The notes: generated by a model from the letters alone, not told the origin. Positions 8,050-64,000 are shown, numbered from the stretch's first letter. The stretch is 64,000 nucleotides of DNA from Candidatus Reidiella endopervernicosa (GCF_013343005.1 NZ_CP054491.1:3020501-3084500); one strand, 5' to 3'. Program-made: numbers and translations.

Positions 8050-8657
8050 AGCTGTCCAGCGTGAAAGATCAGCCGCGGAAAGGATTCGGCATCGAAGTGG
8101 TCGACCTGCACCCGACTGATGCCAGCACTCGGCACCTGCAGACGGAACATACGATCGAGCGGCATATCGAGCACATGACGTAGCACCATACGCATCATAC
8201 CGGCGTGGCCAACGACCAGTAGGTGCTGCCCCGCATAGCTGTTTAGCAGCGACTCCCAGGCCGCGATCACCCGATCACGAAAATCGGCCAGCGTCTCGGC
8301 ACCGGGCGGTGTGTTGTTGAGCGGATCACTCCAGAAACGGTTCAGGGTCTCACTATCCTCGGCCATCAACTCGGCGGCAGTACGTCCTTCCCACTCACCA
8401 AAGCCGATCTCCATCAAACGCGGGTCCAGCTTCATCGGGATTCCATGTCGCGATGCCAACTCAGCGGCGAACTCACTACAGCGGCTCAGGCTCGAACTGA
8501 CAATACGATCCCACGGAGCATGGTCAGCCACCGCCTCACGCATCTGCCGCCACCCCTTCTCGCTAAGTGGATCATCGATCTGACCACGATAACGTCGTCC
8601 ACCGACCGGCTCGCCATGACGCATTAGATCGATCGTGGTGGTAACCATTTCACTCAT
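8046..8657 (-). CDS. cobC: alpha-ribazole phosphatase, histidine-phosphatase family
   Basis: CobC removes the phosphate from alpha-ribazole-5'-phosphate or adenosylcobalamin-5'-phosphate. The 203-residue protein has the phosphatase signature LMRHGEPVGG at residues 12-21, the family RYRGQIDDPLSEKG region and the second catalytic His in VVGHAGMMR. It lies 10 bp after cobT and overlaps cobS. General phosphoglycerate-mutase-like phosphatases share the fold, so the name rests on both the motif set and the neighbours. Confidence 0.9.
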   Translation of the reverse strand: MSEMVTTTIDLMRHGEPVGGRRYRGQIDDPLSEKGWRQMREAVADHAPWDRIVSSSLSRCSEFAAELASRHGIPMKLDPRLMEIGFGEWEGRTAAELMAEDSETLNRFWSDPLNNTPPGAETLADFRDRVIAAWESLLNSYAGQHLLVVGHAGMMRMVLRHVLDMPLDRMFRLQVPSAGISRVQVDHFDAESFPRLIFHAGQL

Positions 8658-8667
8658 TCAATATTCC

Positions 8668-9720
8668 CTATAGCTCTTCCGAGACATCCGCCTCGGCAAA
8701 GGTGGCCATGTTGTTGTGCAGCGCCACCGCCATACGCAGCAGCGGTAGCGCAACGGCTGCGCCGGACCCCTCACCGAGACGCAGATCGAGATCGACTAGC
8801 GGCTTGGCACTGAGCGCCTCGACCATCAGGAGATGACCCGGCTCGGCCGAGGCGTGGGCGAACAGCAGCCAGGGACGAATCTCCGGGACAATATGTGTTG
8901 CGGCAAGTGCGGCACTGGTGGCGATAAAACCGTCGACCAGCACAGGCAACCCCACCTGCGCCGCTGCGACATAGGCACCGGCCAAAGCGGCAATCTCAAA
9001 ACCACCCAGGCAACGCAACACCTCAAACGGTTGCTCGAGCAACGCAGTGTGTAACAGCAACGCCTGCTCAATCACCTGCGTCTTGTGCTGTACGCCATCG
9101 CTATCGAGTCCCGTACCAGGCCCCACCAGTCGTGCCGCTGGCTGTTTGAGCAGTGCAGCAGCTATCGCCGTAGCGGCGGTGGTATTGGCGATACCCATAT
9201 CACCGCCAACAAAGAGCTCCGCCTTCGTCTCAACTGCGCGCGCCACGGCATCCCGTCCAGCAGAGAGTGCGGATGCCAACTGCTCGGTGCTCATCGCTGC
9301 ACCGACAGCGAGATTACTACTACCTGCAGCGACACGTTGCGAGATGACACCCTCCAGCGGACCGGGATCGATCACCGCACCGACATCGACTACCTCGAGC
9401 CGTGCACCCAGCTCACGCGCCAGCACACTGATCGCCGCACCACCACGGGCGAAGTTACGAATCATCTCGGTAGTGACCGCCTGCGGAAAGGCGGAGACCC
9501 CTTCATCAGCGACACCGTGATCGGCGGCGAAGATAACAATCGAAATCTGTTCGAGGCTGGGTGCCTCACGCCCCTGTAGCGCGGCCAACTCGATTGCTAC
9601 CGTCTCAAGCCGACCCAGGGAACCGGGTGGCTTGGTGAGCTGCTGCTGGCGTGCCTCTGCCGCGGCGCGCACCGTCTCATCCAGTTTGGCAACGGGCGCA
9701 TTTAGCCACTCGACACTCAT
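8668..9720 (-). CDS. cobT: nicotinate-nucleotide--dimethylbenzimidazole phosphoribosyltransferase
   Basis: CobT transfers phosphoribose from nicotinate mononucleotide to the lower-ligand base to make alpha-ribazole phosphate. The 350-residue length is typical. Seen motifs include [10 protein letters not shown] (about 31-40), [26 protein letters not shown] and the C-terminal LGEGSGAA, whose Glu is the family's catalytic base. It starts immediately after the cobU stop codon, which suggests translational coupling. Confidence 0.96.
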
Positions 9721-56347: not shown

Positions 56348-56424
56348 CGGGGTGTAGCTCAGCCTGGTAGAGCACTGTCTTCGGGAGGCAGGGGCCGGAG
56401 GTTCGAATCCTCTCATCCCGACCA
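56348..56424 (+). tRNA. tRNA-Pro (anticodon CGG)
   Basis: The 77-nt cloverleaf has acceptor CGGGGTG/CATCCCG, anticodon loop TTCGGGA with anticodon CGG, TTCGAAT as T-loop and an encoded ACCA end. It lies 3 bp after the ispB stop codon. Confidence 0.95.
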
Positions 56425-56608
56425 TTAACACTTAACTAAGCACACCACCTTACCCACCGCACTTAATTCTCCTGCCTTCACCCCTAAATTGAAACATTCC
56501 TCTTTCTCAATCAATCACCGGGTTCGGCATACCCCAGACAAATGAATTAAAAGCAAACTTACTGTACATTTTCCGTAACTATAATAAATCGGTAATCGAA
56601 GGCACATC

Positions 56609-57625
56609 ATGGATGATATTTGCGAAAACAATACCCTGCTGACGCACGACGACCTAACAACTATCGGTCGTCACGCTGAATCCATCACCTACTCGGCCAA
56701 TCGGATCATCTTTGCAGAAGGAGACGAACCTGATGGCGTCTATTTCATTTGCGAAGGTCAGATCCTAATTCTCACAAACAAATTCACCAGCCAGGAACAG
56801 ATCAGCAAACTCGAGAAAGGCAGCTACTTTGGCGAGATGGCAGTCCTCGACCAGGGACTTCGAGCGGCATCCGCAGTCGCAGACTCGGATTGCGAGCTAC
56901 TCAAACTCGATCAGGACACCTTCATGGAGCTGATGAAAACGGGCAATAGAACTGCTTTAAAGATTAACGACATGCTCGCGGCGCGTTATGAAGAACTAAT
57001 CCTGACAGAGGACATAATGTCCAAATCAGGCCTCAACAGTAACAAGCTTCACGTTAGCATTAAGGGAGACCCGTCATTAAGAGAGTCGGCTTTCTCACGT
57101 GATCGGTACGATAGCATTGCTGACAAGGCACTCTCTGAATTACTCCCTATACTCGAAGATTTGATTCTCAACCATTGCCCCTATCAATTCTTTCTCTCTC
57201 TCAGCAGCGAAGAGGTTCGAATCATGTCTGTTTTCGAGCCTTTTGGTGGTCAAATACACTCATGCAACAAGCTACTTGACAAGAATTATATAAAACGGCA
57301 TTTCCCAAAAATCGATTACCTGGAAAAGACCGAATTAATCAGAGAACTCTACAAAACACTCTCTAAGAACCGAGCATTCGAATCCACATCTGGCCACTAT
57401 AGAAAGATAATGAACAACTATTATAATAATTGGCAACCGGTCAGCAAGGATGAGATCAAGAGAACTCTTTCTAATATTCCTGCTTTGCGAACACTTCCCA
57501 ATTTTTACATCAGAAACTTTTCAATCAGCATGGTTCATGATGCTATTCGCATGCAGTTCAATTGCGACGGCACACACATCGTTAGCAACGATGAACTTCT
57601 AAATTTCATGAAACAAAATGTGTGA
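56609..57625 (+). CDS. cyclic-nucleotide-binding domain protein with unknown C-terminal domain
   Basis: Residues about 12-125 form a cNMP-binding domain with the phosphate cassette FGEMAVLDQGLRAASAVA; the GE and RAAS residues for cyclic nucleotide contact are present. The remaining 200 residues are unlike CRP: there is no helix-turn-helix that I can see, so it is probably not a DNA-binding regulator. The C-terminal part is not recognised. With a class III nucleotide cyclase at the other end of this locus, it is a plausible receptor of that cyclase's product. Confidence 0.75.
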   Translation: MDDICENNTLLTHDDLTTIGRHAESITYSANRIIFAEGDEPDGVYFICEGQILILTNKFTSQEQISKLEKGSYFGEMAVLDQGLRAASAVADSDCELLKLDQDTFMELMKTGNRTALKINDMLAARYEELILTEDIMSKSGLNSNKLHVSIKGDPSLRESAFSRDRYDSIADKALSELLPILEDLILNHCPYQFFLSLSSEEVRIMSVFEPFGGQIHSCNKLLDKNYIKRHFPKIDYLEKTELIRELYKTLSKNRAFESTSGHYRKIMNNYYNNWQPVSKDEIKRTLSNIPALRTLPNFYIRNFSISMVHDAIRMQFNCDGTHIVSNDELLNFMKQNV

Positions 57626-57786
57626 TTATCTAACTAGAAACAAACCTCAGAACAGTGATAGCATTAGCGCGCGCTTATATGCCAAGACGCCGAAATCAAC
57701 CGAAATATTATTGTCGGCACCTAAATTGTTAGCGAATAATGCAAACCAAACTACATATGCGATCGGAGAAACTCACATTAAATAAT

Positions 57787-59082
57787 ATGAGGAAACAGTA
57801 CGTGAAAAGATGGACCAATGGATTGACCGTAGCGACAATCTTTTTACTCGGAAACGGAGCGTGTACTGCCGCCGTGGATTTGCTGGACGATCCACAGGTG
57901 CAATTTCTTCAGGCCATTGAAGAGCGAAATAACGGTTCGCTTGAGAATGCAATTGAGCTTTTCAAGTCCATATTATCCGAGCACCCCTCACTGCATCGTG
58001 CCCGACTAGAACTGGCGGTTGCCTACTATCAGGCGCTTAACTTCGCAGAAGGTCGCAACCAGGCCATGACTGTCCTGAACAACCCAAACACACCCGCAAA
58101 CGTGCGGCCAAAAATCAGGGCTTTTCTTGATGTACTGCAAGCCAACGCACAGGAGAACCGATGGTCACCCTTTATAACGCTCGGTTTTTTATACGACACA
58201 AATGTGAATGCAGGCCCCGATGACGACACTATTCCCACCGGGGGCGGCTCTATTGTCCTGATCCCCAGCGCCGTTGCGCGTGTAGACTATGGTTACAATC
58301 TCTCGACGGGCATCTCCCATCGCTATCTGGCACAAAGCCCAATCAGCATTGCTGACTCAGAGGTCAGTCTCGTCTGGTACTCGAAAGCCAACGTCTACCG
58401 GATGGATTACAACGCTGAAAATGACCGCGATCTTGATCTACTCTCATTCAGCACGGGGCCTACCCTAGTCGCTGCGAGAAAGTACCGTGCGGGCATAAAC
58501 TTTAGCGCTGATCATATGCGCCTGGGTGAGGATAATGAGGCCTATCTCAACACCTACGGCGTAACCCCAAAGATCTCCTGGATCTTTTACGAACAGAGTG
58601 CCGAGCTGACCGCAGATATCAAACTGCAGAAATCTGATTATCTGCAAGATGCAAACGATGCGCGCGATGGTTACCGTTACATTGGAGGACTCTCACTGCG
58701 CAAGACACTACGACGCGAACGGATGGCCGTCGAGGGGCGCGTAGAATTCTTTGATCAGGAGACCGAAGAGGGGCGTTACGCCTATAAAGGTTCGCAGCTC
58801 ATGCTGGGCGCCAGCTATCAACCTTCAAAGAGATCCAATCTCTACACCCGCCTACAGTTTGAAAAATCTGACTACGATGAGCTGGATGGCGCCTTTGGCG
58901 TAGTACGCGATGAGAAGAAGCAGCGCGCCATTATCGGTGCAAGCCATAGCTTCTCCAAGAGTAGTTCGCTCAGTGGTTGGACCATTGATGGCAGCTATGC
59001 ATTCACCAATAATATTTCGAACATTGAGCTCTATGAATACCGTCGTAAACAGCTCGGTATTCGCGTAAGCCGCTCGTTTTAA
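57787..59082 (+). CDS. TPR plus outer-membrane beta-barrel protein (Slam/DUF560-like)
   Basis: The protein of about 431 residues has a signal peptide (TNGLTVATIFLLGNGACTAA), a periplasmic TPR region of about 110 residues (AIEERNNGSLENAIELFKSIL ... ARLELAVAYYQALNFAEG) and a C-terminal barrel of about 290 residues. The barrel begins FITLGFLYDTNVNAGPDD and ends in Phe. This is the layout of surface-lipoprotein assembly modifiers (DUF560) and related TPR-porins. No lipoprotein client is clear next to it. The start is uncertain: ATGs at 57739 and 57757 are also in frame; 57787 gives the best signal peptide. Confidence 0.72.
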   Translation: MRKQYVKRWTNGLTVATIFLLGNGACTAAVDLLDDPQVQFLQAIEERNNGSLENAIELFKSILSEHPSLHRARLELAVAYYQALNFAEGRNQAMTVLNNPNTPANVRPKIRAFLDVLQANAQENRWSPFITLGFLYDTNVNAGPDDDTIPTGGGSIVLIPSAVARVDYGYNLSTGISHRYLAQSPISIADSEVSLVWYSKANVYRMDYNAENDRDLDLLSFSTGPTLVAARKYRAGINFSADHMRLGEDNEAYLNTYGVTPKISWIFYEQSAELTADIKLQKSDYLQDANDARDGYRYIGGLSLRKTLRRERMAVEGRVEFFDQETEEGRYAYKGSQLMLGASYQPSKRSNLYTRLQFEKSDYDELDGAFGVVRDEKKQRAIIGASHSFSKSSSLSGWTIDGSYAFTNNISNIELYEYRRKQLGIRVSRSF

Positions 59083-59107
59083 TCGATGAACAGCAAGGAA
59101 GGTTCAC

Positions 59108-59896
59108 ATGACTAACTCACTATTCAAAACTCTAATCATCACACTCGCCACAATAGCCAATACCACCGTCGTATACGCGGCTAGCACAGATGATGCGGGC
59201 TACATTGCAAGACAGCGAAATGATGTACGCATCAACGAAGACCCAGCTCATAAGGGCGACATCTTCTCTAGCCAGGACATGATCGTTACCGGCGAAAAAA
59301 TCTTCTCAATGCTAAAATTTCGCGATAACAGCTCCATGTTTGTCAAAGCCAATAGCAAGGTCAGCATCAGTGAGTACCAGTACAACAAAAATGATCCCAA
59401 AGACTCAAAAGTCGTTGTGGAGCTTACCGAAGGAGGTTTACGTGCACTCAGTGGCGCCATCGGAAAAGCAAACCCACAGGCGGTCGAATTCCGCACACCG
59501 GTAGGCACAATTGGTATTCGCGGCACAGATTTCATTGTCAGCATTGTCGACGGACAACTCTTCATGGAGGTACTCGACGGTGCCATCATGGTCGAGAATA
59601 CAGATGGCGAACCCGTGTTGTTGCAGGCGGGTCAGGTGTTAGTACTCGGTGCAGATGGAACTCTCGCCGCCCATGGCAATCAAGCCAAGAAAATAGGCAA
59701 AAAGAGCGGCGCATTTACCGAATTTACCAAGGTAAGCTTCTCTGGCGACCAGGAGAACTCACCCTACAGCTGGGGTCCTTGGACAGTAACCGATATCGCC
59801 AATCCAACCGACAGTGGTGATGGTTCAGACGGTAGCAGTTCTACCACCGCTCTGGATGAGACGACCATTCCTAACGAAACGGCCTCGGCGAAGTGA
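59108..59896 (+). CDS. secreted FecR-domain protein
   Basis: The 262-residue protein has a signal peptide (cleavage near VYAAS) and a FecR domain (VTGEKIFSMLKFRDNSSMFVKANSKVSI; GGLRALSGAIGK; FRTPVGTIGIRGTDFIVSI). Periplasmic FecR-domain proteins of this type, without an anti-sigma part, often stand beside CHASE2-type nucleotide cyclases, as here. The stop overlaps the next frame by 4 bp. One extra A in the AAG before the stop would fuse the two frames into one protein of about 460 residues. Confidence 0.85.
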   Translation: MTNSLFKTLIITLATIANTTVVYAASTDDAGYIARQRNDVRINEDPAHKGDIFSSQDMIVTGEKIFSMLKFRDNSSMFVKANSKVSISEYQYNKNDPKDSKVVVELTEGGLRALSGAIGKANPQAVEFRTPVGTIGIRGTDFIVSIVDGQLFMEVLDGAIMVENTDGEPVLLQAGQVLVLGADGTLAAHGNQAKKIGKKSGAFTEFTKVSFSGDQENSPYSWGPWTVTDIANPTDSGDGSDGSSSTTALDETTIPNETASAK

Positions 59897-60483
59897 ATTT
59901 CATCGAGCAAAACCCCGTTGTTCTGGAAGGGGCTATCATGAATTTTTACGGGGAAGCAGGACCAGAAACCACTCAAGGCGACCTACAGGCTCAGGTAGTT
60001 TGGCACACCGATACCGACATAGATCTTTACCTGATCACGCCCGGCTCTGGGGTTGTTAGCTACAACCAGCAAAGCATAAGTCTGAGTGGTCGTAGCGAAG
60101 CAATTCTGGATTGGGACAATTCAGAAGGCGAAATTGACTACGGCGAAGATACTCGTTTTGAGAATATCGCAGTAACTGGAGATGTGCCTGATGGCTTCTA
60201 CCAGTTTTTCGCAGAGGATTGCTGCTCTGATTCAGGCAACACGACTGATGTCACACTAACGGTAACCGATGATGGCGGCACTTCAGGCTTGAGAGACACC
60301 TTTACGCTCACAGAAAACAGTCCCACCACCACCACAGACACAACCGATATTTTTGCCGTAGAGATGGTCGATGGCGAGGCCCAAAGCTACCACAGGGGTG
60401 AAATGCCTGCCGATCAATACAACTACATCGCACCATTCGATTCGGGTGGTTCACAGGAGGCCGAAGAGGAAATTAGTTTTTAA
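59893..60483 (+). CDS. beta-rich protein, probably the C-terminal part of the FecR-domain protein
   Basis: The 196-residue frame begins NFIEQNPVVLEGAIMNFYG, has a segment VVWHTDTDIDLYLITPGSGVVSYN like the DUF2135/pre-peptidase type of small beta domain, a CC pair (AEDCCSDSG) and a Thr/Asp-rich tail. It has no signal peptide of its own although it looks extracytoplasmic, which supports fusion with the preceding FecR protein. If it is a separate gene, it is translated by GTGA overlap. Function unknown. Confidence 0.6.
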   Translation: MNFIEQNPVVLEGAIMNFYGEAGPETTQGDLQAQVVWHTDTDIDLYLITPGSGVVSYNQQSISLSGRSEAILDWDNSEGEIDYGEDTRFENIAVTGDVPDGFYQFFAEDCCSDSGNTTDVTLTVTDDGGTSGLRDTFTLTENSPTTTTDTTDIFAVEMVDGEAQSYHRGEMPADQYNYIAPFDSGGSQEAEEEISF

Positions 60484-60600
60484 TTTAATTCACACTCGTT
60501 AACAAATAACACAATGAACAATGGCTGCTCACGAAAAGCGGCCTTACCGCAAATAAAATACCGTGGTAATATCTTCATCAAATAATAATTACTATTAAAC

Positions 60601-61161
60601 ATGGACAACATGCAACTCACGGAAGAACAACACAACGAAATTCGTCAAGCAGTTCAGGATTTAAAAACCGCCATGGAAATCCGTGGTGGTCTCAATCTAC
60701 GCGTCGCCCGGCGCGTAACCACGATCCTGCGCGTCGGAATGATCGGTTTCGGCATCTTTACACTCGTCCTTGTATTGATGATGTATGCCTTTACATCAAA
60801 AATGACCATCATGCTTGATGCTCTTAATACAATGACCTACCAATTCACCTCAATGTCTAGCGATATGCAGGTTATGCGTACTGTTATTACACAGATGGAC
60901 CACTCGGTCTCCGCCATGCCGAATATCGTTACTCAGACCGGAGAGATGCGGCGTTCCGTCAGAGGGTTACGAGGTGAAATCACCACGATGAACAGCCAGG
61001 TGGATGGAATGCAAAACCGTTTGCATGGAATAACCACCCAGGTCGATCAAATGACCCATACCTTCCGCAGTCTCGATCCAGCCGTACAGGGACTTGGAAC
61101 TGATCTGAACAGCATCTCTCGCCCGATGAAGTTCTTCAACAGCTTCACTCCCTTCCCATAG
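60601..61161 (+). CDS. membrane-anchored Met-rich coiled-coil protein 1
   Basis: The 186-residue protein has a cytoplasmic N-terminus of about 45 residues, one membrane segment (VGMIGFGIFTLVLVLMMYAF, about 44-63) and a long helical periplasmic part with repeating Met and polar residues (MTYQFTSMSSDMQVMRTVIT). It ends NSFTPFP. It is a paralogue of the next gene in length, layout and C-terminal end. I know no characterised homologue. Confidence 0.6.
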   Translation: MDNMQLTEEQHNEIRQAVQDLKTAMEIRGGLNLRVARRVTTILRVGMIGFGIFTLVLVLMMYAFTSKMTIMLDALNTMTYQFTSMSSDMQVMRTVITQMDHSVSAMPNIVTQTGEMRRSVRGLRGEITTMNSQVDGMQNRLHGITTQVDQMTHTFRSLDPAVQGLGTDLNSISRPMKFFNSFTPFP

Positions 61162-61189
61162 TGGCCACACGAGAAGATCGAACACCATT

Positions 61190-61750
61190 ATGAGCAACCA
61201 ACGAACCGAGGAAGAGAGCATCCAAAACAGTCAGACTGTTCGCATCATCACCGAATCGATGGGTTTGCTCCGCGCTGAGATGGAGACAATCGACAAGGTA
61301 GCGGTGAAAGTTGCGGCCAAAACAACCTTAATCTTTAGGAGCGTACTCGCCCTGCTTGGCATCATTACTATCTATCTGGTTTATCTTGTATATATCATGG
61401 CCACGCATATGGGCAGTATGAACTCACACCTCGAGACCATGTATGGTCAATTCGGCATAATGGCCGACAACATGCAAAAGATCACATCCTCCGTACAGAG
61501 CATCAACTACAACGTGCAGGGGATTCCTGCGATCTCCAGCCACATGACCAACATGAATAGCGACGTCGCTTCAATGCTCGCATCGGTGCACGACATTAAT
61601 GTTAGTTTTAGTGGCATGAATAACGACGTGGCCAACATCCATATCGACACAGCCGAAATGTCACAACATTTCAACACAGTCAATAATGCGGTGAATCACA
61701 TGCGATACAATGTAAACCAGATATCAAACCCTCTAACGCCATTCTGGTAA
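61190..61750 (+). CDS. membrane-anchored Met-rich coiled-coil protein 2
   Basis: This is a second 186-residue protein with the same plan: N-terminal 48 residues, one membrane segment (SVLALLGIITIYLVYLVYIM), and a Met/Asn-rich coiled coil (MYGQFGIMADNMQKITSSVQ). It ends SNPLTPFW, like the SFTPFP of its paralogue. It starts 28 bp after gene 1. The tandem pair suggests a hetero-oligomer spanning the inner membrane into the periplasm. Confidence 0.6.
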   Translation: MSNQRTEEESIQNSQTVRIITESMGLLRAEMETIDKVAVKVAAKTTLIFRSVLALLGIITIYLVYLVYIMATHMGSMNSHLETMYGQFGIMADNMQKITSSVQSINYNVQGIPAISSHMTNMNSDVASMLASVHDINVSFSGMNNDVANIHIDTAEMSQHFNTVNNAVNHMRYNVNQISNPLTPFW

Positions 61751-61793
61751 GAGCCATTCAATTCACCACAGACACCGAAATAGACCACCCACC

Positions 61794-62573
61794 ATGAAGA
61801 GAGCCATCTTTAACGCGATCAACAACGATGAACTAGAGATGTACTACCAGCCAAAATTCAATCCTGTCACAGAAGAGGTGACCGGTCTTGAAGCATTTGT
61901 CAGGTGGAACCATCCGGACGGACATCAACTCCAGGCTGGCGAGTTTATCCACGTTATTGAAAAGGATTCTGAGCTAAGCCTAGCACTGGATAACTGGGTT
62001 CTGAACCATACACTCGCCCAAGCAACAGATTGGACCGACAAACAATATGGACTGGAGTTTATATCGATCAACCTCTCATCATGGATACAGACTGACGCAC
62101 TAACATCGATCATAAACAACGCACTAACCAACACAGCCTATCCAAGCAACAAACTCTCATTTGAGTGTCCCTGGCGAATACTAGAGATGGACACGACACT
62201 TACCACCAAAACAATGCGCAAAATAAGAGAGTCAGGTGCCTGCATTATCACCGATGGCGCGCCACTTGATGCCAGCGCGTTAATAACGGCCCGTAATACG
62301 CCCATCAAACTCTCTAAAGTCTGCTACACAACACTACACAAACTCATCGACGAGAGCGGCGTCAAGGCCGTATCAACACAGATCAGGAATTGGAAAAAAT
62401 CAGGGATAAAAATTGCTGCGGTAGGCGTTGAGAATGACAGCGAACATGAGCTAGCACGTCAAATTGATTGCCACCTCTCTCAGGGCAATCGCTTCAAAGC
62501 CCCACTGTCAGCAACAGACATCACCGCCCTACTTGTGATGATAATGGAAACCAAGATCGCATTTGGCATCTAA
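61794..62573 (+). CDS. degenerate EAL-domain protein
   Basis: The 259-residue single-domain protein has the EAL fold (MYYQPKFNPVTEEVTGLEAFVRWNHP shown in part; INLSS; LSQGNRFKAP) but key positions are altered. EAL reads EAF, the DDFG loop reads TDGAP, KID reads KLSK, and the AEGVE motif reads AVGVE, so one of the catalytic Glu residues is lost. It is probably not an active c-di-GMP phosphodiesterase and may instead bind c-di-GMP or a protein partner. It follows the two coiled-coil genes on the same strand. Confidence 0.75.
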   Translation: MKRAIFNAINNDELEMYYQPKFNPVTEEVTGLEAFVRWNHPDGHQLQAGEFIHVIEKDSELSLALDNWVLNHTLAQATDWTDKQYGLEFISINLSSWIQTDALTSIINNALTNTAYPSNKLSFECPWRILEMDTTLTTKTMRKIRESGACIITDGAPLDASALITARNTPIKLSKVCYTTLHKLIDESGVKAVSTQIRNWKKSGIKIAAVGVENDSEHELARQIDCHLSQGNRFKAPLSATDITALLVMIMETKIAFGI

Positions 62574-62699
62574 GCCGGTACTGCTTGCGGAAACCATGAC
62601 TAGAAACCAGCGCTATTTATAGATCAAATCACGCACAAGACACTATTTTGTATAACCATTACTCTGCATAGAAATAATCACTTCAACGGAATAGACACC

Positions 62700-64000
62700 C
62701 TACTTTGAGGTATGCACAAACTCCGGAGACCAACAACCAGGGTTTGTTAAAAGAAGCTCGGTACATCGATCAAAATAGAGGCTATAGAGCTTTCTTTCCG
62801 GATACGCCTGTACCAAGCCCCAGAAGTAGAAGCGCGCCACATCCCATGAGCCTGACCTATAGTTTTCCAGTGCAAGCTCATATATCCCCAGCTCATTCTT
62901 AATCTGACTGTTAACCTGATCACTCTGGCACATAGATCTCTATTGCATTCTCTTTACCCTTCGCCTTAACGATATCGAGCGAGCGATATATAAAATTATC
63001 CTTGGTTAATTCAGCTGTACGCTCTCCAACAATAATGTCCACACCATAGTATTTGGTCAAACCTTCCAGACGCGAAGCGAGGTTTACCGAATCACCCAAC
63101 ACAGTATAGGCACGACGATACTCAGACCCCATATCACCAACACTCATGGCTCCTGTATTTATTCCAACGCCAATATCGAAGCGAGGCAGTCCATCTTTTT
63201 CGTTTTGATCTGCCATGATCTTTGCCTCAGAGATCATTCCATAGGCAGCCAACACCGAGTTTCTGGCATGTTCTTTATCATCAATTGGCGCACCCCAAAA
63301 TGCCATAATCATATCGCCGACATACTTATCGATAGTTCCACGATTGTCGAAAATAATACGCGTCATGGGCGTAAAGAAGTGATTCAGGAATGTTCGCAAA
63401 TCGTGTGCATGTAAACTCTCTGAAATGGTTGTAAAGCCACGGATATCTGCAAAAAGCACTGACAGCTCTTTCGTCTTACCATCCAATGAAAAGCCGTCAT
63501 CTCCTCCCTCACTCATCTCATGAACAAGTTGCGGTGGAATATATTGACTGAATATCCCCTTAATTCTCCTCTCACGCCTGACACTTTTAAAATGACTATT
63601 AAAACCGTTAAATACAGCCAACATCAGAACCAAAAGGATCTGCGGCGCAAGATTAAGCACCAAATGCTCCGCGGACCATAACCAGAAGTTTGAAAATATC
63701 AGCAATACCAACACAACCATTGCCGTAACGATCTGCTTTCCAGCAGCAAAGAACGGTAAAGTAAGTGTGAGAAACAGCCCCGTCACAACAAGTACAACCA
63801 AATTTACCGCGTTGACCCAGGGCGGTTCACTATAGAGATTGTCATTGAGTATTCCGGAAATCATATTTGCGTGAATCTCAACACCTGGCATGTTCGCTTC
63901 AAGGGGCGAATTCCTAAGATCAAGTATGCCCTGCGCCGACGCCCCAATAAGAACTACGGCCTCTTCTAAATCTGCACTTGAGAATGAGCCCTCAAGTAGA
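62700..64000 (-). CDS. CHASE2-type class III adenylate/guanylate cyclase, partial and frameshifted
   Basis: The frame is open through the right edge of the window, so the N-terminus is missing. The part seen has the end of a CHASE2 sensor (EEAVVLIGASAQGILDLR; MPGVEIHANMI), then three membrane segments, then a class III cyclase domain: SVLFADIRGFTTISE (first metal Asp), KYVGDMIMAFWGAP (second metal Asp) and DSVNLASRLE. That frame stops at 62920, and a second frame (62700-62933) carries the usual C-terminal TPR-like tail (ELALENYRSGSWDVARFYF). The two are separated by a 1-base gain or 2-base loss near 62925. It faces the cNMP-binding, FecR and coiled-coil genes. Confidence 0.88.

Follow-up and report, generated by a model that had tools for sequence, protein, structure and literature searches.

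In the complete 3.45-Mb chromosome of Candidatus Reidiella endopervernicosa, most likely a gammaproteobacterium to judge from its gene content and the relatives of its cyclase and barrel, we analyzed a stretch of 64,000 nucleotides (NZ_CP054491.1, genome 3020501-3084500), referred to as the window herein. Its end carries genes for a tetratricopeptide-repeat (TPR) outer-membrane barrel, a periplasmic FecR-domain protein and, on the opposite strand, a class III cyclase with a CHASE2 sensor domain, three genes that form a real module recurring across genomes. The best explanation for the window copy, to which we assign a probability of roughly 0.55, is that it represents, with its parts encoded by separate genes, a cyclic-nucleotide signalling module which spans the cell envelope and which is decaying in this genome. 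A preliminary description of this DNA had joined the three genes with a cyclic nucleoside monophosphate (cNMP)-binding protein, two coiled-coil paralogues and a degenerate EAL protein into a single envelope circuit. The association it pointed to is real, but the set is smaller than proposed and partly broken here. Co-location above chance was found for barrel, FecR, and CHASE2, with no such evidence for the coiled coils, the EAL protein, or a 196-aa open reading frame (ORF) that the description had missed.

Recurrence of the barrel, FecR and CHASE2 genes

Co-location was assessed across the class in 94 genomes, each representing a different family. SlipAM hits had a FecR gene within 4 kb in 9 of 10 cases (0.08 expected), and FecR genes had a CHASE2 gene within 5 kb in 26 of 66 (0.49 expected); both expectations are for genes placed at random and take no account of phylogeny. 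FecR and CHASE2-cyclase genes occur together, as the preliminary description had stated. A barrel profile built from alignment A4 matched 96 of 369 genomes, the weakest matches being probably other TPR or barrel proteins. Because an iterated barrel hidden Markov model drifted into plain TPR proteins and was dropped, our counts rest on the A4 model. Sixty barrel loci were taken, and the barrel ORF was clear in 45 of them; in 39 of these 45 it is followed directly by a FecR gene. When the surroundings of 80 named CHASE2 cyclases were compared, the pair of barrel and FecR was met again in Pseudoalteromonas, Rheinheimera, Alteromonas, Gallionella, and others, and the window's order of barrel (+), FecR (+), and cyclase (-) is repeated at three loci (L093, L102, and L103).

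At eight other loci, FecR, TPR, and a barrel-like C-terminus are fused in one protein of about 530-1150 aa, with one of the ORFs cut off by a contig end. A CHASE2 cyclase is present at seven of the eight and a cNMP-binding neighbour likewise at seven, frequencies that are no test of linkage since the loci were chosen for FecR genes already close to a CHASE2 or cNMP domain. One of three fused proteins scanned matches a TonB-receptor-like barrel, and both cNMP neighbours scanned carry a CRP-type helix-turn-helix (HTH).

The window barrel itself, earlier described as a TPR/outer-membrane barrel, is by sequence and model SlipAM/DUF560-like with 14 predicted strands. It matches PF04575 (SlipAM) with E 7e-6 (26.2 bits, above the cut-off of 22), and its AlphaFold2 (AF2) model has TPR helices at 52-137 followed by 14 long strands, with a mean predicted local distance difference test (pLDDT) score of 76. 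BcsC, CymA, and OmpG are among the best solved-structure fold matches of this model. The likelier start of the protein is the ATG at 57787, ahead of a signal peptide.

In a conserved operon of Alteromonadales (L124, L125, L132, L137, L157, and L163), the barrel and a FecR with the C-terminal domain described below stand with a protein of ∼1900-2100 aa, a metallo-beta-lactamase-fold protein, a CHASE2 cyclase, and a GAF-HD-GYP protein. The one giant protein scanned (L137) has cadherin/Ig/beta-propeller domains. Since the operon adds a cadherin-type protein of this size, additional input or output might pass through such a surface protein.

The C-terminal domain of barrel-linked FecR proteins

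Barrel-linked FecR proteins of other genomes have a C-terminal domain in common, in which a WGRW motif is frequent. The domain was found in 12 of 12 FecR proteins with a barrel neighbour versus 0 of 8 without, a split that chance would give about once in 126,000 for independent loci, although those of related species are not independent. A second set, anchored on the barrel, had the domain in 36 of 52, several of the remainder being cut by contig ends and some being genuinely short (237-254 aa) like the window's. AF2 models the domain as eight strands, mostly with pLDDT 75-94. The Pfam profile TbpB_B_D, a domain that marks type 11 secretion system (T11SS) cargo (PMC8406197, PMC12282271), matched it with best E values of 8.9e-7 (2 of 13 members) and 0.0011 (2 of 9). 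No convincing sequence-level relative was found among solved structures. Taken together, the models and profiles suggest that the partner FecR proteins usually end in an eight-strand domain resembling the TbpB domain of T11SS cargo.

These findings are consistent with the following mechanism. An outer-membrane TPR barrel of the SlipAM/DUF560 type would work with a secreted FecR-domain protein and, because FecR in most genomes ends in the eight-strand, T11SS-cargo-like domain, it probably translocates FecR or keeps FecR anchored in the outer membrane. A class III cyclase of the inner membrane, predicted to make cyclic AMP (cAMP), would use its CHASE2 domain to read the state of the periplasmic FecR domain. 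The catalytic motifs FADIR and DKYVGD are of the class III type, and by analogy with this family the specificity would be adenylate rather than guanylate. A cytoplasmic cyclic-nucleotide-binding protein would respond, whether of CRP type, a cNMP-rhodanese protein or, here, the cNMP protein with its own C-terminal domain. Where the preliminary description had cast the barrel as the output, comparison with NsrA, an outer-membrane barrel protein of S. meliloti, makes an input or secretion part more likely. More tentatively, a large branch of T11SS-like barrels may handle FecR as cargo, with an inner-membrane CHASE2 cyclase reading its secretion or docking.

Several points weigh against the signalling module. 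The expected co-location values are idealized as stated above; a CHASE2 cyclase lies within 8 kb of only 14 of the 45 barrels, and for many of the 80 named CHASE2 cyclases there is no barrel in the vicinity. Only 2 of the 13 members reach significance with TbpB_B_D, and Foldseek with the FecR C-terminal domain returned weak avidin-like barrel matches only. In the window, FecR has no detectable cargo-like C-terminal domain, and the cyclase adjoining the barrel-FecR pair is dead. Lastly, while the domains, gene order, recurrence, and broken cyclase are observed and the strands are predicted, the physical interaction, the direction of the signal, cAMP as the messenger, and the role of the cNMP protein are inferred.

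The far tighter linkage of barrel to FecR (39/45) than of barrel to cyclase (14/45), the likeness of the FecR C-terminal domain to T11SS cargo, and the CRP-type regulators often found beside the cyclase would also suit a barrel and FecR that are mainly a secretion pair, a T11SS-like translocon and its cargo, with the cyclase a loosely linked regulator of expression rather than a sensor. We consider this unlikely, as FecR also pairs with CHASE2 proteins where there is no separate barrel. Moreover, a Burkholderia FecR is paired with a CHASE2 histidine kinase (PMC5192318), and NsrA acts upstream of CHASE2 cyclases (PMC7529298).

The broken cyclase and the neighbouring genes

The window was described earlier as encoding a class III cyclase with a CHASE2 sensor. 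Its catalytic half is indeed present, but the gene is not intact (Table 1). The CHASE2 profile matches in two minus-strand pieces (genome 3084275-3084553 and 3084829-3085599), between which lies an interspersed repeat of ∼280 bp just beyond the window (genome 3084544-3084824; L009 about 8545-8825). The N-terminal CHASE2 half is a separate ORF outside the window with a stop at the repeat insertion, and when the intact paralogue is aligned, each half is matched in a frame of its own. Likewise, a relative, L093_9, aligns to the C-terminal tail in another frame than to the catalytic part. The window cyclase is a pseudogene, split by the repeat and frameshifted at its 3′ end.

Table 1. Features at the end of the window (window positions)
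Feature	Position	Strand	Basis or remark
cNMP-binding protein, 338 aa	56609..57625	+	PF00027 E 2e-20; ∼212-aa C-terminal domain outside any named family; lacks HTH
TPR + SlipAM/DUF560-like outer-membrane barrel (14 strands predicted), 447 aa	57739..59082	+	PF24575/PF04575; AF2 model
FecR-domain periplasmic protein, 262 aa, short type without C-terminal barrel domain	59108..59896	+	PF04773 E 1e-10
196-aa ORF, 4-base overlap with FecR stop	59893..60483	+	no homologue found
Transmembrane (TM) + coiled-coil protein 1, 186 aa, 10% Met	60601..61161	+	neighbour, outside conserved module
TM + coiled-coil protein 2, 186 aa, 8% Met, paralogue of 1	61190..61750	+	neighbour, outside conserved module
Degenerate EAL protein, 259 aa	61794..62573	+	PF00563 E 4e-33; neighbour
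CHASE2 class III cyclase pseudogene, C-terminal half	62920..64000	-	N-terminal half and ∼280-bp repeat just beyond window (genome 3084544-3085686)
Cyclase C-terminal tail remnant, out of frame	62754..62933	-	tblastn of L093_9, E 9e-7

The repeat has at least 42 genomic copies at 95-100% identity (361 first-look candidates), without evident terminal inverted repeats. Close pairs occur at 2950339/2950619 and 903178/903461. The same repeat splits another CHASE2 cyclase gene (877563-877844), where its relative orientation is reversed and the copy runs opposite to the gene, which makes an intron unlikely. A third CHASE2 locus is frameshifted. Two CHASE2 cyclases of the genome are intact, at 552022 and at 3087635-3089863, about 3.1 kb past the window. 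The latter has CHASE2, TM helices, and the cyclase domain in one frame, as the window cyclase does not, and its closest grouping is with the module cyclase from genome G035 (support 86/95). Since the adjoining cyclase is a pseudogene, any remaining signalling in this genome would have to run via this intact enzyme.

With its pseudogene cyclase and a FecR without the barrel domain, the module is decaying here, and the window copy may be a relic or may depend on the neighbouring intact cyclase. The 196-aa ORF has no obvious signal peptide. Neither a detectable relative nor a recurrent link to the module was found for it, and as a candidate for the missing FecR C-terminal barrel domain it was ruled out by its lack of similarity. 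From the overlap and the absence of a signal peptide, it may be a split-off C-terminal end of FecR. Two further barrel-FecR loci of this genome (L099:8971-13148 at 2.97 Mb and L089:7420-11387 at 1.80 Mb) are apparently damaged, with FecR C-terminal domains over three frames and with barrel, FecR, and cyclase in fragments.

The plus-strand genes from the cNMP-binding protein to the EAL protein (56609-62573) begin 185 bp after a tRNA-Pro (cgg) (window 56348-57000), and the G+C content falls at the cluster start from about 0.55 in the preceding genes to 0.42-0.53. The tRNA adjacency and the lower G+C hint at horizontal acquisition, with an island boundary at the cluster start. These two features, together with the split and frameshifted cyclase, the FecR without cargo-like domain followed by an orphan ORF, and the damage at the two other loci, would fit a locus that is as a whole a nonfunctional relic, possibly of an acquired island, with no present joint function. 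That all of the cNMP, barrel, FecR, coiled-coil, and EAL frames are intact, and that an intact CHASE2 cyclase stands ∼3.1 kb beyond the window, leads us to regard such a complete loss as improbable.

The cNMP-binding protein was correctly described as lacking a DNA-binding domain. It keeps the phosphate-binding motif FGEM...RAAS, and domain profile searches found no HTH or other DNA-binding domain, in contrast to the CRP-family receptor of the NsrA pathway. Its ∼212-aa C-terminal domain (window 56984-57622; also L075:9974-10639; alignment A5) is present in 29 of 369 genomes, has no Pfam or NCBIfam match, and stands alone or behind a cNMP domain; its motifs GDPSxRE and RMQFNCDGT are strongly conserved. 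Cache-type proteins (e.g. L076:9391-10419) contain a weaker match.

For CHASE2, 10 of 100 cases have a cNMP-binding protein of another architecture within 5 kb (0.79 expected). Proteins of ∼360 aa combining a cNMP-binding and a rhodanese domain were seen near CHASE2 cyclases at L111:10146-11246, L115:14949-16049, L146:12917-13999, and L169:4513-5592. In L111 and L115 the gene is directly upstream of the barrel, the position of the window's cNMP gene. Such proteins are also found in betaproteobacterial cyclase loci, and CRP-type cNMP proteins recur at related loci too. Because other architectures recur beside CHASE2 and barrel genes, a receptor role is plausible for this kind of neighbour at the level of the cNMP domain and is unproven for this particular protein. 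The window protein belongs to the conserved module only at that level.

The two TM/coiled-coil proteins are, as first described, Met-rich paralogues (26% identity, E 1e-14), and the EAL protein is degenerate, reading TDGA in place of the DDFG motif, so it is probably catalytically inactive. Short gaps (-4 to about 120 bp) on a single strand from the cNMP gene to the EAL gene might suggest a single pathway served by all seven genes, with the coiled coils, the degenerate EAL protein, and the window's cNMP protein among its members. We hold this to be very improbable. A gene-neighbourhood comparison of the cNMP C-terminal domain and the coiled-coil pair, proposed at the outset as the check, found either in 0 of 45 other barrel loci and 0 of 80 cyclase loci, and homologues of both lie among unrelated genes. 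With 0/45, the lack of co-occurrence that had been named as fatal to the idea holds for these components, and for them a single seven-gene circuit is rejected. EAL genes occur near CHASE2 cyclases at chance level only (80 cyclase loci). Weak relatives of the coiled coils stand directly before a dynamin-family GTPase in three genomes, this one included (L086:9020-11012, L088:2999-5236, and L081:7697-9794).

What thus stands of the proposed envelope circuit is the co-location of barrel, FecR, CHASE2, and cNMP domains, the fusions, and the precedent of NsrA; its cyclase is broken in the window, and the cNMP C-terminal domain and coiled coils are unlinked to it.

Comparison with known systems

CHASE2 is a common sensor domain whose ligands are called unknown in the available text of PMC5192318, cargo is neither known nor predicted for most T11SS barrels (PMC12282271), and FecR-CHASE2 gene pairs are widespread and little explained outside S. 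meliloti. The barrel-FecR pair, the fusions beside CHASE2 cyclases, and the cargo-like FecR domain tie these three questions into a testable chain. If FecR is barrel cargo read by CHASE2, sensing in a trans-envelope cyclic-nucleotide pathway would fall to the secretion system itself.

The preliminary description held the pathway to be undescribed, which is too strong given published work on NsrA and on a Campylobacterota cluster. NsrA is a large outer-membrane barrel protein needed for the CHASE2 adenylate cyclases CyaK and CyaD1/D2 to answer an external protein, with Clr downstream (PMC7529298, PMC13001267). That pathway shares with ours an outer-membrane barrel, inner-membrane CHASE2 cyclases, and a CRP-family protein, and NsrA is similar in size to the fused FecR-TPR-barrel proteins. 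The basic idea of the envelope circuit is not new, since it resembles this NsrA-CHASE2 cyclase-Clr pathway. The barrel-CHASE2 class III cyclase linkage expected of an NsrA-type pathway was found in other genomes, but the window has only a cyclase pseudogene beside the barrel-FecR pair. The window further differs in having barrel and FecR as separate genes, a SlipAM/DUF560-like barrel, and a cNMP protein without HTH.

The Campylobacterota cluster, noted in 2022, comprises a CHASE2 cyclase, a phosphodiesterase, a FecR outer-membrane protein, and a TPR protein, for which the authors propose one signalling pathway (PMC9239204). It thus shares CHASE2 cyclase, FecR, and TPR protein with the module, whereas no link to a T11SS barrel or cargo domain is drawn in that text, and no phosphodiesterase gene was recognized in the window cluster. 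Similarly, the Burkholderia BiofilmReg operon has a LysM-FecR protein beside a CHASE2 sensor, but with a histidine kinase and response regulator in place of a cyclase and, in the portions available, no outer-membrane barrel reported (PMC5192318).

Like the T11SS (Slam/NilB/HrpB; DUF560), the module sets a TPR protein with a predicted 14-strand barrel beside a protein that usually ends in an eight-strand, TbpB_B_D-like domain. It differs in that the putative cargo is a FecR-domain protein rather than a metal or haem binder, in its link to a CHASE2 cyclase, and in that the window FecR is without the domain. A text search of the main text of the 2025 T11SS cargo survey found no mention of FecR, CHASE2, or cyclases (PMC12282271), and FecR as T11SS cargo appears to be undescribed in the literature available to us. 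What is new, in an otherwise precedented variant of a published pathway, is that a T11SS-like barrel and a cargo-like FecR are tied to a CHASE2 cyclase.

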